Shown: piece by piece, positions 12,585 to 64,000 of the stretch
Position numbering within the stretch: the first letter of the stretch is position 1
How the letters are laid out: each line of letters opens with the position of its first letter
Origin: Halichondria panicea
Lineage: Eukaryota > Porifera > Demospongiae > Suberitida > Halichondriidae
Assembly (NCBI RefSeq): GCF_963675165.1
Contig: NC_087389.1
Coordinates: 5,430,120-5,494,119 of the forward strand
Direction: 5' to 3'
DNA length: 64,000 nt
Position numbers and translations under genes: made by a program
The notes under the pieces: generated by a model
What the model was told of the DNA's origin: nothing
The model's database searches: none
What the model saw: the letters and a program-made list of their open reading frames with translations, nothing else

Positions 12585-13679
12585 TTAATTGGCTAAAACA
12601 AAAGACCTGCTAACATTAGGTAGCACAAGTGGTGAAGATGAAAGAAATATATGTCCGTTCATTGGGCTGCCATTAGCAGAGCCTCCGAAGCCAGAGTCGG
12701 CTGGGCTTGATCTGAGACTGCATTCGTATTCGAGAAGCTGACCCATGAAACCAAAGTTAGGGGAAATGTTCTGTTTTCTTTGCTTCACAAAGTCGTAGGC
12801 ACTGTCCAGAGTGTGATGGTAATTCTTCATGAGGTAGGCTAGAATCACTGTCACTGATCTCGACATGCCAGCGTGGCAGTGTACAAGTACTTTCTCGTTG
12901 TTCATTCGGGCGTCTTCGATAAAACAGAAGGCATCTGGCAAATACTTAAGCATATTTACATCGTGTGAATCTTCCACAGCAATCTGTTTGTACTCAAATC
13001 CCTGGCTTTCAAAGTTGTTGGGTTCTGAAGAAGTGACATTGAGAATTCGTGTAATTCTGCTGTCTTTGAGATGTTGCAAACTTGCTGCCACTTTTCTGCA
13101 GCCCAGGAAAAGATGAGGTAGTATCTCGTAAGGTGCATGTCCAGCTGCTTCTGATGGAGAAGACTCTTCGGAGTCTGAGCCATTGCTGGCTTGTTCAGTT
13201 ACACCCAGTGCTATGTTTGAGAGTTGCAGAACAAGGCTGCTTGGTCTTCTTTGGAGAAGGTCATTTCTTGTCATTTCCAAGTCACAAAGTTGAGGGTAGT
13301 GTTGCGCGAAGTACTCGAAACCTCCAGACAGAAAGGCAACGAATTTACAGTCTCTTGAAAGTCTTTTGAGGAGCAGAGCTGCAACCGAGTCAGATTGCAG
13401 ATCATCTAGAGATCTTGAGTGTCTATCACAGACAATTACTTGAACGCATTCTGCTTCTTTGGCTAGTTCAAGCTTGTCTTTGTCTTCTTGCAAGTTTAGA
13501 AGACACTCTACTTTAAGCGATCCATTCTTGAGTCTTCGCAGAATCATTCCTGTGCAACAGATGTTGACAGATCCAGGTATGAAGCCGGCATTGTATTCTG
13601 AGACTTCTCTAGTGTCGAGAAGTAGAATAGACTGAGGGTCTTGTTTGGCTACCCAGGTGGCATCGACACACTTCACCAT
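12585..13679 (-). CDS. MAP-kinase phosphatase (dual-specificity, single exon)
   Basis: Encodes 364 residues in one uninterrupted exon. Residues ~10-135 form a rhodanese/CDC25-like region (LLLDTREVSEYNAGFIPGS) with a basic patch ILRRLKNG resembling the kinase-interaction motif of MKPs. Residues ~183-325 form a dual-specificity phosphatase domain with general acid Asp237 (VEDSHD), catalytic Cys268 in HCHAGMSRS and the following AYLMK, the usual MKP signature. Members dephosphorylate pThr and pTyr in the activation loop of ERK, JNK or p38. The subfamily cannot be assigned from the sequence alone. The tail after 325 is Ser-rich. The ATG at 13677-13679 precedes the rhodanese core by the usual short distance. 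Absence of introns contrasts with its neighbours and could reflect a retrocopy or intron loss. Confidence 0.92.
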   Translation of the reverse strand: MVKCVDATWVAKQDPQSILLLDTREVSEYNAGFIPGSVNICCTGMILRRLKNGSLKVECLLNLQEDKDKLELAKEAECVQVIVCDRHSRSLDDLQSDSVAALLLKRLSRDCKFVAFLSGGFEYFAQHYPQLCDLEMTRNDLLQRRPSSLVLQLSNIALGVTEQASNGSDSEESSPSEAAGHAPYEILPHLFLGCRKVAASLQHLKDSRITRILNVTSSEPNNFESQGFEYKQIAVEDSHDVNMLKYLPDAFCFIEDARMNNEKVLVHCHAGMSRSVTVILAYLMKNYHHTLDSAYDFVKQRKQNISPNFGFMGQLLEYECSLRSSPADSGFGGSANGSPMNGHIFLSSSPLVLPNVSRSFVLAN

Positions 13680-14165
13680 AGTGATATATTATTGTAGACT
13701 TTGTAGAGAGAGAGAGAGAAACTTCAAATTGTGTTTATTGGAATTACTGCATGAGGCAAGTGCCTTTTATAAGCGGTGACAATTAATTGGCTATGAATAA
13801 AATTAACAGGTGTATTGGCGCTTGCACTAACGAGCCCCACCCCCTTTTGAAGCCATTTTATGAAATGGTGACGTAACCACAATTTACTACAACTGTCTGC
13901 TGCGGTTTTGTAACGGCGACAGGATAATGTAAACAGCTTCTTTTCTTTTCTTTGGTGCCTCATTAATCATCAATAAAAAAATAATTGATTGCTCACGTGA
14001 GTTCTTTCTCTCTACCTCCTAACCCACGTGTTGGTAAGTATCTCTTTGTATCTTAGTTTTATTCAATTGATCAATGATAGTTACTCTAACTGACTATGTC
14101 TGTGTGTGTTATAATGTTTCCTTTAATTGTTGTAGGTGAATCTGTGTTCAGAGCTATCTGTTGAA
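13680..14165. promoter_or_regulatory. Shared upstream region of the phosphatase and RPL29, with RPL29 5'UTR intron
   Basis: The two start codons are divergent and 486 bp apart. Two CACGTG E-boxes lie at 13994-13999 and 14025-14030, flanking a pyrimidine-rich TTCTTTCTCTCTACCTCC run typical of a ribosomal-protein TOP start. A donor GTAAGT at 14034 and acceptor TAG at 14133-14135 define a short intron in the RPL29 5'UTR. Exact start sites are inferred. Confidence 0.55.
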
Positions 14166-48195: not shown

Positions 48196-50162
48196 CTATG
48201 AGTATCCTAAGCCACTTTTTTTAGGTCGTAGTTCTGCTCTCACTGGGTCTTGTATTCCGTTGCTACGGATACCAAGTCCTGTACCTGGTGTCCAGCCCAT
48301 GTTGCGTAACATCTGGTTGCCGAGGTTGGACTCGCTCAGAGGGGGAATTCCCTGACCCACCACTGAATGTGGGTGTGGCAGAATAGTAGCCATTGTCTCT
48401 ATAGTGTCCATCGGTGTACAATACGCTAGAGAATCCTTCAATAGCATAGTCGGACTTTCACGGCCGTGATTTCGTAAGATTGGTTCAACTTCTTGTCTCG
48501 AAGCAAGTCTTGTGAGCGGAGACTTCCTTAGTAATGGACTAGCCACTGGCAACCGCCTCTTCTGCTCAATATAACAGTTTAGATTATACACACTTGCAAG
48601 GCACGATATAGTTCGACACATAGCCCGACTGACAAGATTGAATTTCAGTTCAATTTGAGCAGAGTCTTGAATAAACCGGACAATCTGTTGATTCACATCC
48701 AACAGTGTAGGTGGTTGAGTGGGTTTGCATCTTTTCTTTCTTCTACCACCACCAGACAGCCGCACTCTTCCCGGGTGTTTAAACTCTGGTGGCAGCTCAG
48801 CATATAGTTGATTGTGGAACTGTTTCTGTCCCTCTTGGGTCATGAGTGGATATGCTCCGTGTAGGATTCGAGAGAATTGTTCATCTTCTGAGCTCGATTG
48901 CTCTCTTAGTGTGGGTGAGAGGTGACTGGCTCGCGAGAGAGGTCCCTCCACACTGCTCTCCTCGTCATCACCCTCACAGCCACTATGTGTGTGTGGAGTG
49001 GGTGCGTGGTGTGTGTGTGTGTGTGTGTGGAGTGGGTGGTGTGTGTGTGTGAGGTATATTTTAAGCATAACAGTTTCTAGTTGGTAATGCTATTCACTTG
49101 TTAGGCACTAAGTACATTACATCAGTCAGCAGTAAGTATATTCTAAGACATGTGATATGACGTGAGCACGGAACAATGCATCAAAGCATACCAATACGAT
49201 TGCTGTAATAGCCACTATCAACATCAGTGCACGCACGCACGCACACGCATGATCAAAGCATTATTGGAATACCAAAGTTGGCTCCAACAACTGAGGGATA
49301 TCATGATTGGACCAAAGCCCCACACACCACACACCTCAACTCACCTATCACTGGTGGTACTCTCACTAAGGTCACTATCATTCAGTGCCCCCTCCACACC
49401 CTCCACACCCCTCACACCGCCCACACACAGCTCCATCGGGGGCGTTAGATCAAAATCATCATCCATTCTCTCAGAGCCAAATTCATCAACGTCGCAAAAA
49501 ACAGAAGTATCGCTGAAACAACACAACAGTGGGTCATCTTCTTGTTGAGATTTCGAACGCCTCGGGCGACGAAACAACTTAGCTCTCGAGAATTGAGGAT
49601 CTTTATGAGTAGGTCTAACAAAACTAACGCAGAGTGGATTCGGCGACGCTCCGTGTTTAGGTAATGTCGTACCATCGCGACTGTTGTTCAATGAATGACG
49701 AGATTTCTTCATACGTTTGTTTGGCTTACGTCGTGACGGTCGTTTCCTTGATTGCTTCAGGCGACCAGATTCTCGATCGCTTAACGAAGGGAGCACATCG
49801 AAATTACCCCCCCCTAGGGAGTTCAGGTCAACATCAATGGCCATGGGGTCTGGTCGTATCTCGTTCAACAATATGCTGGATGGTTCACTGTTCACGGCTG
49901 GATCTAGACACGGTAGCATTGAGAAATTAAGACACGATAGTCGACGTGTGACCTCCATCTCGTCAGGGCTGGGTAGGTACTCTGCGCCCGAGGGGGTAGG
50001 AGGGAGGTGTATCTCATCTAGACTGTCCCAGGCCAGGCTCTCCCGGTCTTCTTCATTCGGTAGCGCTGATTTCTCGGGCTCTGAGTCGTGGGTCTTGGGC
50101 GGTATACGCTGTCCCCTCTGCCGCTTGGATAGCTTTCTCTTTGGCTGTTTTCTTCTACCCAT
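48196..50162 (-). CDS. GPATCH2: G-patch domain-containing protein 2
   Basis: Exons 49345-50162 and 48196-48982 join in phase into 534 residues, close to the 528 of human GPATCH2. The N-terminus (MGRRKQPKRKLSKRQRGQR) and mid-region are basic and nuclear-localisation-like, mixed with acidic Ser-rich stretches. Residues ~370-430 (LLDVNQQIVRFIQDSAQIEL onwards) resemble the R3H-type region found next to G-patches. The C-terminal ~45 residues are the G-patch (LGNQMLRNMGWTPGTGLG), an RNA-helicase activator motif of splicing and ribosome-assembly factors. The single intron has a CA-rich acceptor side ending CACATAG. It starts head to head with the gene at 50412. Confidence 0.88.
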
Positions 50163-59018: not shown

Positions 59019-59473
59019 TCACAACTCGTCCCGTTCACTCGAGACAGGGGCATCCTCATTTCCATGGAGACGCTGAGAATCATGCTCGTTCCCAGTTGTC
59101 TGATTAGGTACGTTGGGAGCTGCTCCATTGTTGCCCGTAGCAACCTTTGTGTCACTTGGAGAAACGTCACGATGATGTTGAGAGGTTGGTTTGTCTGTAC
59201 TGGAGGTATCGTCCACAGGCTCCACTTGTGTGGGGCTAGGGTTGGGTTGATCATCATCTGTTCCAGGTTGTTCTGTCAATTGGGCTGGCTCAGACGAAAA
59301 TTGCTCATCAGGCTTTTCTTTATCAGGTTTAACTAGTTGCTCGGTAGGTTGTACTGGTTGTTCGATTGGAGATAATTCAGCTTGTCGGTCAGGTGAGTCC
59401 ATTGTTCGCTCATCTGTAGCCCCATCCTTTGAGTCCCCCTCCCCTCCAGTGACTGACACCTTGCTCTTCTTAC
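59019..59473 (-). other. CRELD: CRELD alternative last exon B: acidic tail ending RDEL
   Basis: Acceptor GTGCAG|GT also fits the phase of the 60522 donor. The exon encodes a 150-residue Pro/Glu/Gln/Asp-rich tail without membrane segments, ending SERDEL and TGA at 59019-59021. RDEL is a recognised variant of the KDEL ER-retrieval signal, matching the soluble ER-resident CRELD2 type. Confidence 0.8.
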
Positions 59474-61913
59474 CTGCACGGGGGAGGGGAGGGGGCTGAG
59501 TGGTTAGCTGTGATTGTCAGTGTGGATCTTACTCTATAGAACACATGCCCGTGCTTCCCAGCTCCTCGTACGTATAGAGAGGGTACACACACACACATGC
59601 TTCTAACCTCATGCATACAGTTTACAGTAGACATGGTGAATGTCAGAATCTGAAGAATGAATAAATAGCAAAACAAATTTCTTTTCAATTTCACCCCTAG
59701 CTCACAAAAGTCATAAAATTCAATAAGCAGTGTTCCAAGTGCTAAATATACATATCGTCCTGATTATAGAACCAGAAGCCACACGCTGCTACAAACAGAA
59801 TAGCTACAGAAGTCAGCATGTTAGGGTTGCAGCACTTGACCGTGAATATGAGCAAGGTCAGAGGACCCCCTAAGTGGTACCAGGAGTAGTGTATCCTCAC
59901 GATACTGTCTCCCTCGTCGCCATTCTCCTCCATAGAATCATCTGAGACCAGTGGGACACAACATTCATTAACTAAGGCCACCACTCGTATATTAGAGAGT
60001 CTTGCAATGGCCAACAGACAACCAAGACTTATACTGATAAAATTATACAAGTGTGTTTGTGTGTCTCAGAATTTTTAATTTTCTCAAATTTGCCTCTTTT
60101 ATTAACATTAACATAGAGCGCGACATTTTTGAGGTACAATGGAACCTCTGTTAACAACCACCTCCGAATAAAGGCCAGTTGCTGTGTAATGGCCAGGCAC
60201 CCAGGTCCCAAATGAACAGTTTGTGTACAAAACAACCTCTCAACAAAGGCCACCTCTGTATAAAGATCAAAACATTGTTCCCCATGCAAAGGTGTCCGTT
60301 ATAGAGGGGTTCCACTGCACTTAAATTTCGTGATATAGACTCTAAAAGCATTAGCCTCTAAAAGCATTTCGTTGAATAAATTTCGTAAGGACTGCTAAAC
60401 TTACAAAAAAGTGAAAATTAAGCCCCCCCAAAACTTAGCGCTATATGGTACGTTGTAAACAAGGCCTACATGTTAAGTGTAGGCACATCCCTGATGTGTG
60501 CGTGTACATGTATGTGATCACCTTTCTTGTTCTTTTTCTTCTTTTTCTTTGGTTTCTTGGGAGGTTGGACACAGTCTCCATCAGGTGATCTGACCAGCTC
60601 CTCGGCACACTTGCAGGAGAAGGTCCCCGCCAGATTAACACACACCTCGTTGTCAGGGTCACAGGGTCCGGGCGTGTTCGTGCACTCGTCAATATCTGTG
60701 TGTGGGTGTGATGTGTGCGTGAGAGGGTGTGTGTTCTATACCGAGCACTTATGAAACTCTACAAGCCTCCAACGAGATAGTTTAATTATCAAGTCTCACA
60801 CACACACCACACACATACACCCACCTTCACACACGCCCACTCACCCTTGCATATGCTCTCTTCCATCCTATAGCCAGTCTTACACTCATCACAGCCCTCG
60901 GGCCCCGCTCCAGAGCAGCTCAGCTGACAAGAGATATGGCACGCTACAAAATGCATGTGAAAATGCACAATCCTAACTCAAGTTATGAGCACAGTCAAAG
61001 TTAGTGGATCATGTGCCTACCTTTACAGTCATGTGACCCGGCAGTATTCTCACAGTAGGTACCACTAGAGCACAACGACTCCACCTCACACTCGTCCACA
61101 TCTGGGGAGAGGGGTCATGTGATTATCATGTGACTGTACTGTGATGAGACGCACCTTCACAGACTCCCTTTTCATTCCTACTGTATCCCGTAGAGCAGTC
61201 CCCACACTTTGATGGTCCCGGTCCATTGCACACGCTACAAGACTTGTCACAAGCTGTAATCGTGTAACAACACACAATAAACTATATTATATTTGCGAGC
61301 GTTTATCACTTTGCGACAATAAAATCTAAAGTGGCAGAAGCTAGGGGTCAATTTGTTTGGCTAATTTGGCTAATTTGTAAAGGTTTTTAACTTGCAAAAT
61401 ATTATAGTAAATAGTGTAATTATTCTTGAGGTTACTTGTGTTGAGTTACCATATAGCGAGTAATTTCCGTGGGGTAAATTTTGTGGGCAAGCTGACCTCC
61501 ACGAGAATTTTCCCCACGAAAACGTAGGCGTGGCTTACCGGAATGCGAATTCAAATGAAATTTGTATTCCCGAAAATCACCATTTTTGAATTGAACGATT
61601 TTTACCCTTGAGAATTACCCGCTATACGGTATTACTCACCTTGACAGCGATGTTTCCCCGGGGTGTTGAGACAGTAGGTACCATCAGAACAGATGGAGTC
61701 ATCTTCTTTACACTCATCAATATCTGGTGGGCCAGGGTGAGTCACACTGTGTACTAGTGCAAGCCAGTCTCCTCACCTGTACAAGATCCCTCCACCTCCT
61801 CATATCCCAGGGCACACTCCTTACAGCTGTCAGCCCCCGGACCACCACACTCTTTCAGGCATGCCTTATCACACACTGCATGGATGCATGTGTGTGTGTG
61901 TGGTGTGTGTGAG

Positions 61914-62311: not shown

Positions 62312-63717
62312 GGTGCGTGCGTGTGTGTGTGTAGCATCAGAGCTTTGGCTGGAAGCAAATACACAAAATATATTATTATTATTATGTAACAGAATACATG
62401 ACACTGTATATAACGTAATGACTGCTCAAAACATGGCTACCAAAATGAATCACAAAAATGCCAGCTCATAAATATTGTGTACCTGACATGACCCGTGGCC
62501 ACCACAAGGCTGCTCCCTCCCACCAGGACAGTCAGAACAGGTGGGGCCAAACGTGTTAGGTGGACAACAAACTGTGTGATGTGTGTGATAAGTGTGAGGG
62601 GGAGGATTATCTAAACTGTGTGATGTGTGTGAGGAGTGTGAGGGGGAGGAGTCTCTGAGCACCAGTACAGAGTGCATTGTACAACAGGCAGGAGATAAAT
62701 TTGGGCAAAGCTTCAAACAGAAAGGATCACCAGCTACAAAGGAAGTCAGCCCTTTCTAGTAACCACACTTCCTGTGTTAACTTACCATCGAGGTTAGTTG
62801 AGCACAACCACTGCTTTAGATCATCATAGCCCTCCTCCTTATGTCTCCTGTGTGCAGGGACACTACATTAGTCACACCAACTACAACCCCAGAGGAGGAG
62901 CGTCAGGGTCAAAAGGTATAGTCTTAATCATAAAACTGCTTCTGGGGGACTTTCTACTCAGCTATTGACCCTGAAAATCCTCCTCTGCTACAACCTCATG
63001 TGCAAATTCAACAGTCTCCTGTACACCACTAGGTTATAAGTCAACACCAGTTTAACAACTTCCTTTCTCAAATGCAAGCGTATTTTAACAACTTTTATAG
63101 CACACACAGTCAAAGTCACTCATTCAACACAACCGTTGTATAACTGGCTCTTGTAAATAATGTACTCACAGCTTGAACCACCATCTCTCAATCTCCTCCT
63201 CATAATTCTCCAGCAGTCGATGGCACTGCATTGAAACACACACAGCTTTATACATTGCAGGCACTCGTGTATGTATGTATGTCACTATATAACTCCCTAG
63301 CAATCAATGAGAGCATGGATACATAGTGACAGAGCTTACATCATAGTCTGAATGTTTACAAACATCGTCCAGCATCTCGATCAATCGAACCTCACTGCAA
63401 GAAAATAAAATCAACTTTTTGAGAGTGTGAGTGCAATTAGACGGAGGCTACCTGTTAGCGTAGGAGCCGAGTTTCTCCTCCTCCCAATTCGTGTCCCCAC
63501 CAGCAAAGTTTGACTTGGCCGTGTCGTCCATCCTCTGGGGGGAGGGGCAGCGTATGCATTACCCCATACACCTCACCACATTTTAATAGATGTTCACACT
63601 CACTTTGTTGAAGGCTTGGACAAAGTCTTTGCATACTTTACATGATGGTTTGACAGCCAGAGAGTAGCTTGCCAGGAGGAGGACAATGAGTACCAAGGAT
63701 ATGTCGAGTGTATTCAT
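59019..63717 (-). CDS. CRELD: CRELD: cysteine-rich with EGF-like domains protein
   Basis: Thirteen shared exons: 63604-63717, 63452-63534, 63340-63394, 63170-63225, 62786-62847, 62483-62571, 62159-62261, 61777-61875, 61640-61723, 61155-61253, 61021-61101, 60845-60943, 60522-60695. Either of two terminal exons follows. Signal peptide residues 1-21 (MNTLDISLVLIVLLLASYSL). A CxxC motif (CKVC) follows, then the WE domain (GGDTNWEEEKL), the laminin-EGF-like VCCPPNTFGPTCSDCPGG, and alternating furin-type Cys repeats (CDKACLKECGGPG, CDKSCSVCNGPG) with calcium-binding EGF starts (DIDEC, DVDEC, DIDEC). A Lys-rich linker (KKPKKKKKNKK) precedes the switch. The family acts in ER protein folding and maturation of receptors. 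Predicted products are 465 aa (membrane) and 550 aa (RDEL). Confidence 0.9.
59742..59941 (-). other. CRELD: CRELD alternative last exon A: membrane-spanning tail
   Basis: Acceptor CTCAG|AT fits the phase of the 60522 donor. The exon encodes an acidic stretch (DDSMEENGDEGD), then two hydrophobic segments (LGGPLTLLIFTVKCC and MLTSVAILFVAACGFWFY), and ends NQDDMYI, stop TAG 59742-59744. This corresponds to the two-helix end of vertebrate CRELD1. No AATAAA or ATTAAA is found in the ~240 bp that follow. Confidence 0.75.
60135..60320. mobile_element. MITE, TACAGTGGAACC family, reverse copy
   Basis: Begins TACAATGGAACCTCTGTTAA and ends AGAGGGGTTCCACTGCA; inverse orientation to 51350-51530. It lies in the intron upstream of CRELD exon A. 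Confidence 0.75.
61447..61631. mobile_element. MITE, TACCGTATAGCGGG family
   Basis: Begins TACCATATAGCGAGTAATTT and ends GAATTACCCGCTATACGGTA, 185 bp, in the CRELD intron between exons 61640 and 61253. Confidence 0.85.
61917..61985. repeat. (GT)n / (CA)n microsatellite in CRELD intron
   Basis: On the coding strand this is a CA tract about 40 nt upstream of the acceptor of the exon ending at 61875. Confidence 0.9.
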
Positions 63718-64000
63718 GGCGTAGCTAGCGCTAGCTGTGATAGTCACTCAACTCAGTTTAGAATGTGGAAGATGTGAAGATTGGTACGGGTCGATTCACC
63801 CACCTGAATATTTTATAGCCTCGATCCCAGGCCGCACTTCCTACACATGCATGGGGCCAGTGATGATGAAGGTACTCCAGATATGTGTTCAGTCTTTAAT
63901 TAAAATTGCTCTTGACATTGTAAGGCCAGGTCTTAGTGATTAATCGTGTGAGCGTTGCTATAGTGTTCATAATAATGATTGCGCATGCTCTTTCACATTC
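63718..64000. other. Upstream region of CRELD
   Basis: Should hold the CRELD promoter. The only recognisable item is a single end of the CTAGCCTC repeat family (TAGCCTCGATCCCAGGCCGC, from 63816); no coding sequence is seen. Confidence 0.45.

Follow-up and report, generated by a model that had tools for sequence, protein, structure and literature searches.

The window analysed here is a stretch of 64,000 nucleotides from the genome of the sponge Halichondria panicea (contig NC_087389.1, positions 5,430,120 to 5,494,119). At 63717-59019 on its minus strand lies a gene of the CRELD family, of which 13 shared exons, all on that strand, could be rebuilt with GT-AG borders. Exon 1 (63717-63604) carries the start codon, a hydrophobic leader and a CKVC (CXXC) motif; the N-terminus of the protein, MNTLDISLVLIVLLLASYSLA, is hydrophobic by inspection and is a candidate signal peptide. 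Exons 2-5 (63534-63452, 63394-63340, 63225-63170 and 62847-62786) encode the WE/DUF3456 domain. Its match to Pfam PF11938 starts at residue 26 and scores 48.4 bits against a cut-off of 21.1 and, together with the CKVC motif, places the gene in the CRELD family. Exons 6-12 (62571-62483, 62261-62144, 61875-61777, 61723-61640, 61253-61155, 61101-61021 and 60943-60845) encode a cysteine-rich part with EGF and calcium-binding EGF modules, and exon 13 (60695-60522), the last shared one, adds a calcium-binding EGF module followed by a lysine-rich linker. The EGF_CA family (PF07645) matches the protein in three stretches, reaching 37.1 bits (cut-off 27), with the best match at residues 347-379. Exons 7 to 13 all end in phase 1, a phase that is common between EGF modules.

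Several other features of the gene and its surroundings should be mentioned. A lysine run, PPKKPKKKKKKNKK, at 60523-60564, closes the shared part. Within intron 4 lies a repeat of about 75 bp (62888-62964) that is dispersed over many contigs, with matches in both orientations, and is perhaps a small transposon. A search of the PDB returned eight distinct sequences with E values of 0.01 or lower, all of them EGF-bearing or, by name, presumably EGF-like, and none named CRELD. The first 192 residues of the protein had no relatives in the prokaryote contigs or in the viral contigs, in one scan of each. The stress-response elements ERSE, ERSE-II and UPRE are absent from the 1.5 kb upstream of the gene, where only four lone 5-base cores occur. 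Elsewhere in the window, also on the minus strand, the frame at 12588-13688 combines rhodanese and dual-specificity phosphatase domains, and we take it to be MAP-kinase-phosphatase-like; the frame at 48199-49089 contains a G-patch domain.

The main interest of the gene lies in what follows exon 13. The donor at its end, AAG/GTGATC, has its GT at 60521-60520 and is in phase 1; on a splice-site matrix built from the gene's 12 other introns it scores 7.2, within the range of the donors of those introns (2.4 to 12.0). Two exons further along the minus strand can be joined to it in frame. The nearer one, tail A (59941-59742), adds 66 residues including the junction codon, with an acidic start and two hydrophobic segments before a TAG stop at 59744-59742. 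The farther one, tail B (59473-59019), adds 151 residues, again including the junction codon; these are acidic and rich in Pro, Ser and Thr, and end in SERDEL before a TGA stop. The product is 470 aa long with tail A and 555 aa long with tail B, without an internal stop in either, so the re-derived model bears out the initial annotation, which had proposed that a shared phase-1 donor can be joined to either exon in frame. One gene, one donor and two terminal exons in frame make up the same arrangement as that of crld-1, the CRELD gene of C. elegans. If the intron after exon 13 were retained, translation would run into a stop after 18 codons.

The acceptors of the two tails differ in rank. When the 98 AGs and 96 GTs of the region were ranked with the same matrix, the tail B acceptor came first among the AGs with a score of 8.7, and the tail A acceptor eighth with 3.7; the 12 known acceptors, each scored by leaving it out of the matrix, range from -5.6 to 13.3. 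The tail B acceptor (59500-59474) is pyrimidine-rich, CCCCTCCCCCGTGCAG/GTAAGA, and its last bases can also be read as a donor, CAG/GTAAGA. Within the tail A exon there is a donor-like site (last exon base 59901, score 5.0) that leaves phase 0. Joining it to 59473 would therefore shift the frame, which makes the in-frame products mutually exclusive and upholds the further proposal that the membrane exon cannot run on into the RDEL exon without meeting a stop.

The evidence on the RDEL tail comes from several directions. The exon sits in an open stretch of 165 codons; when 60521-58948 was shuffled 2000 times with its dinucleotides kept, 4 shuffles reached this length. No other among the 6568 stop-ended frames of the window ends in xDEL. 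Its GC content is 0.499, next to 0.5 in the shared coding sequence, 0.398 in the intron before the tails, 0.434 between the tails and 0.389 after the gene. Of the three frames the predicted one has the highest codon score, 0.18; the other two score -0.26 and -0.54. With the SERDEL C-terminus and a best 17-residue hydropathy window of -0.29, tail B has the character of the soluble forms, CRELD2 and CRLD-1B. Its 151 residues include 32 acidic, 14 basic and 17 order-promoting ones. Acidic tails are usual in luminal chaperones of the ER and, by analogy, tail B may also be a weak binder of calcium.

The membrane exon is the less secure half of the gene model. In a Kyte-Doolittle profile with 17-residue means, tail A has a modest first hydrophobic segment (1.15) and a strong second one (2.11). 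Of 350 open pieces of 66 aa taken arbitrarily from the window, 18 satisfy the same two-segment rule; for this reason hydropathy is no proof of a hairpin. An AlphaFold model of the 65-aa exon from the single sequence gave low-confidence strands and no helices, with a mean pLDDT of 67.3. The codon score of the exon is best in the predicted frame (0.0, against -0.48 and -0.68), and its GC content is 0.468 compared with 0.398 in the preceding intron. As no more than a lead, the second segment aligns locally with the C-terminus of human CRELD1, with a score of 31 that was equalled in 58 of 2000 shuffles. No Pfam family matches tail A above its cut-off; the best candidate, the PF23108 zinc finger, reaches 16.8 bits where the cut-off is 29 and was set aside as a chance match.

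How the choice between the tails could be made is suggested by the 3' end of the gene. A scan of 59760-58850 for eleven poly(A) hexamers found AATAAA only once, at 58947-58942 on the minus strand, downstream of both tails. From the membrane stop to the RDEL acceptor, the same eleven hexamers yield no canonical polyadenylation signal, and AAGAAA at 59683 stands alone. With the sole AATAAA lying beyond both tails, the “two last exons” may in fact be two acceptors within a single terminal region, and the mRNAs of the membrane form probably hold the RDEL exon as 3' UTR. There it would follow either without splicing or by way of a donor such as TTT/GTGAGC, a candidate found near 59705, less than 40 nt past the membrane stop. 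Nonsense decay usually follows a 50-nt rule, under which a donor at this distance from the stop is too near to trigger decay. We infer that the switch may be one of alternative acceptor use, not of alternative polyadenylation. The earlier description of two mutually exclusive last exons is thus to be kept for the in-frame products, which do exclude each other, and to be loosened for the exons themselves, which perhaps share one terminal region.

Taken together, we think it probable that the phase-1 donor of this CRELD gene is joined to either of the two in-frame acceptors, giving a 470-aa membrane form or a 555-aa RDEL luminal form. Use of the acceptor at 59941 would produce a protein of the CRELD1 type, with a C-terminal hydrophobic hairpin as its anchor in the ER membrane, and use of the acceptor at 59473 a CRELD2-type soluble protein of the ER lumen, retrieved by the KDEL receptor through its RDEL end. 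Since the leader, the WE domain with its disulphide isomerase-like CXXC motif, and the EGF modules are common to both predicted products, the splice choice would decide between an enzyme bound to the membrane and one free in the lumen. The gene may in this way offer a simple system for asking how cells choose between a membrane-bound and a free form of one ER folding enzyme.

The evidence can also be read as the use of one tail only. We regard it as unlikely that the RDEL tail alone is used, with the gene making only a CRELD2-type protein and the hydrophobic exon having decayed, or never having been used, inside the last intron. The first and eighth places of the two acceptors would be expected on this reading, and so would the lack of a canonical polyadenylation signal directly past the membrane exon, the weak first hydrophobic segment, the ease with which arbitrary pieces meet the same rule, and the AlphaFold model without helices. 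It leaves unexplained, however, why the membrane exon is in phase and open up to a stop placed just past a C-terminal hydrophobic pair, as in CRELD1, CRLD-1A and the fly protein, and why its GC content is raised above that of the intron before it. The converse, in which the membrane tail alone is used and the RDEL frame is 3' UTR or a chance frame, seems to us very improbable. It is true that a membrane-form mRNA ending at the sole AATAAA would hold the RDEL sequence in its 3' UTR, but this accounts neither for an in-phase frame that ends exactly in RDEL, unique among the 6568, behind the best acceptor of the region, nor for the coding-like GC content and codon score of that exon.

Two further readings concern the RDEL exon itself, and to both we give hardly any credence. 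In one, the two tails come from separate genes, with the RDEL exon forming the end of another transcript that starts downstream of the shared exons. The RDEL open stretch begins about 14 codons before the acceptor and shows no hydrophobic leader, judged by hydropathy in the tail and by eye in those 14 codons, so that on its own its product would not reach the ER, where RDEL acts; the exon, moreover, fits the phase of the CRELD donor. In the other, the RDEL acceptor doubles as a donor site: once 60522 is spliced to 59473, a new donor, AAAG/GTAAGA, arises that could splice on recursively, and competition at one nested site would then govern the choice. As a donor, CAG/GTAAGA scores 6.6 and ranks third of the 96 GTs, close to the 7.2 of the proposed donor. 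Against this, an unsystematic look noticed no further CRELD exon downstream, and GTAAGAAG simply codes for Gly-Lys-Lys, which extends the lysine-rich linker. The use of both tails from a single donor remains our preferred explanation.

That explanation assumes a single gene, and the assembly was searched for others. In the 131-Mb assembly, tail A and tail B were each matched once, in searches that score the best candidates only. With tail A and the last shared exon as query, and E values up to 10, there were 43 matches, one to the tail and the others to the EGF part. No second full-length CRELD gene was found among the best candidates scored in the assembly, a scope within which a diverged copy could be missed. 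A DUF3456 match on contig C11 was considered as a second CRELD gene and rejected: its 3.2-kb locus reads by eye as what we take to be a Canopy-like gene.

Parts of the gene do recur, in an array of partial CRELD copies on contig C13 at 5.49-6.40 Mb, upstream of window position 64000 and set among NACHT genes. Seven further loci carry about 1 kb of the upstream DNA together with exons 1-5. With their introns included, exons 2-5 find matches at seven other places, in pieces that are 91-96% identical, and the aligned parts of exons 1-5 in the copies are about 93-100% identical, save for exon 3, in which four copies have a 9-nt gap. Three copies have indels in exon 1 (of 1, 5 and 1 nt); the donor after exon 4 is intact in all seven, and in two the homology stops inside exon 5. 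Exons 8-12 gave 48 matches, 43 of them outside the gene and all on C13; 39 of these lie on the minus strand at 5.4997-6.0955 Mb. When 9.5 kb around each of the seven loci was searched (blastn, E 1e-3), matches to exon 8, 9 or 12 appeared in three, and neither tail was found, either there or among the best candidates of the genome searches. A piece resembling exons 8/9 is also seen about 6-8 kb upstream of all eight exon-1 places, the intact gene included. The proposal that one gene serves both CRELD forms is supported by the gene anatomy, with a single assembly match of each tail, and has to be qualified for the shared exons, of which many partial copies exist. These copies matter in practice when short RNA reads are mapped to the shared exons.

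The surroundings of the array hint at how it arose. A sampled interval of C13 (5.919-5.9285 Mb) contains an 876-codon NACHT-LRR frame, and the NACHT family has at least 102 matches genome-wide (102 of the 265 candidates scored), many of them clustered on contigs C7, C13 and C14. The family is also matched in 11 of 14 control genomes, with 3 over the cut-off. Its size in this assembly fits the NLR expansions described in sponges, although such a family is not diagnostic of them. An exact silicatein-type motif had 0 hits and a cathepsin-type motif 5; because an intron would mask the former, its absence says nothing for or against a sponge. The CRELD fragments may be passengers of an expanding NLR cluster.

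The closest known counterpart of the sponge gene is crld-1, the sole CRELD gene of C. elegans, which has alternative last exons, 9a with two transmembrane domains and 9b with KDEL (D'Alessandro et al. 2018, PMC6245729). Isoform-specific mutants were tested in that work: CRLD-1A and CRLD-1B are both located in the ER, and levamisole sensitivity needs A only (PMC6245729). The two genes have in common a WE domain with a CXXC motif and EGF modules. They differ in the lengths of their products, since the crld-1 proteins have 356 and 310 aa, with the KDEL form the shorter (PMC6245729), whereas the RDEL form is the longer one here; the acidic RDEL tail of 151 residues is a feature of the sponge gene. 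The worm isoforms were shown by experiment, whereas those of the sponge are predicted from the genome. The first 36 nt of the worm exons, as given by oligos in PMC6245729, are open only in the phase-1 frame for 9b, and for 9a in two frames, one of them phase 1. As 9a and 9b share a donor, both should be in phase 1, as here. This match in phase fits common descent weakly, phase 1 being common at EGF borders.

A single CRELD gene, with last exons that alternate, is present both in the worm and in the fly (PMC12448699). Drosophila Creld, with the exons PA/PB, is one gene whose alternatively spliced last exons come with and without transmembrane domains (PMC12448699); the likeness is one of description, and the passages on Creld in that paper mention no retrieval signal for the fly. 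By description too, the planarian Smed-CRELD resembles the sponge gene in its two predicted isoforms, one transmembrane and one secreted (PMC5055394). The initial annotation had seen here one gene that seems able to make both forms. The anatomy stands, but given the published cases of worm and fly and the isoforms predicted in the planarian, the sponge arrangement is not new in kind. It adds another example, perhaps an older one, of a design known in nematode and fly; in the open-licence literature we found no account of the CRELD arrangement in a sponge or a cnidarian. The two-tail arrangement matches that of crld-1 in C. elegans and that of Creld in Drosophila and probably goes back to a shared animal ancestor. 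The sponge gene would take an arrangement known from bilaterians to an early-branching lineage of animals.

A wider and more tentative suggestion, which we hold to be slightly less than evenly balanced, is that the choice between an anchored and a retrieved CRELD is among the oldest animal splice switches of protein fate. A single ancestral gene would have offered two terminal exons to its phase-1 donor, a state that sponge, worm, fly and flatworm would have retained; in vertebrates two genes would have taken its place, duplication having fixed one tail in each copy. The comparison would provide a direct test of duplication followed by a division of isoforms, with vertebrate CRELD1 and CRELD2 each representing one frozen splice form. 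Vertebrate CRELD1 and CRELD2 have the two fates and the domain set seen here, but in two separate genes (PMC6245729, PMC10018036). The end of vertebrate CRELD2 is given as (R/H)EDL in PMC10018036 and as RDEL in PMC6245729. Judged from its sequence, the RDEL of the sponge tail is nearer to KDEL than the (R/H)EDL of vertebrate CRELD2 is, which suggests a firmer retention of the luminal form in the sponge.
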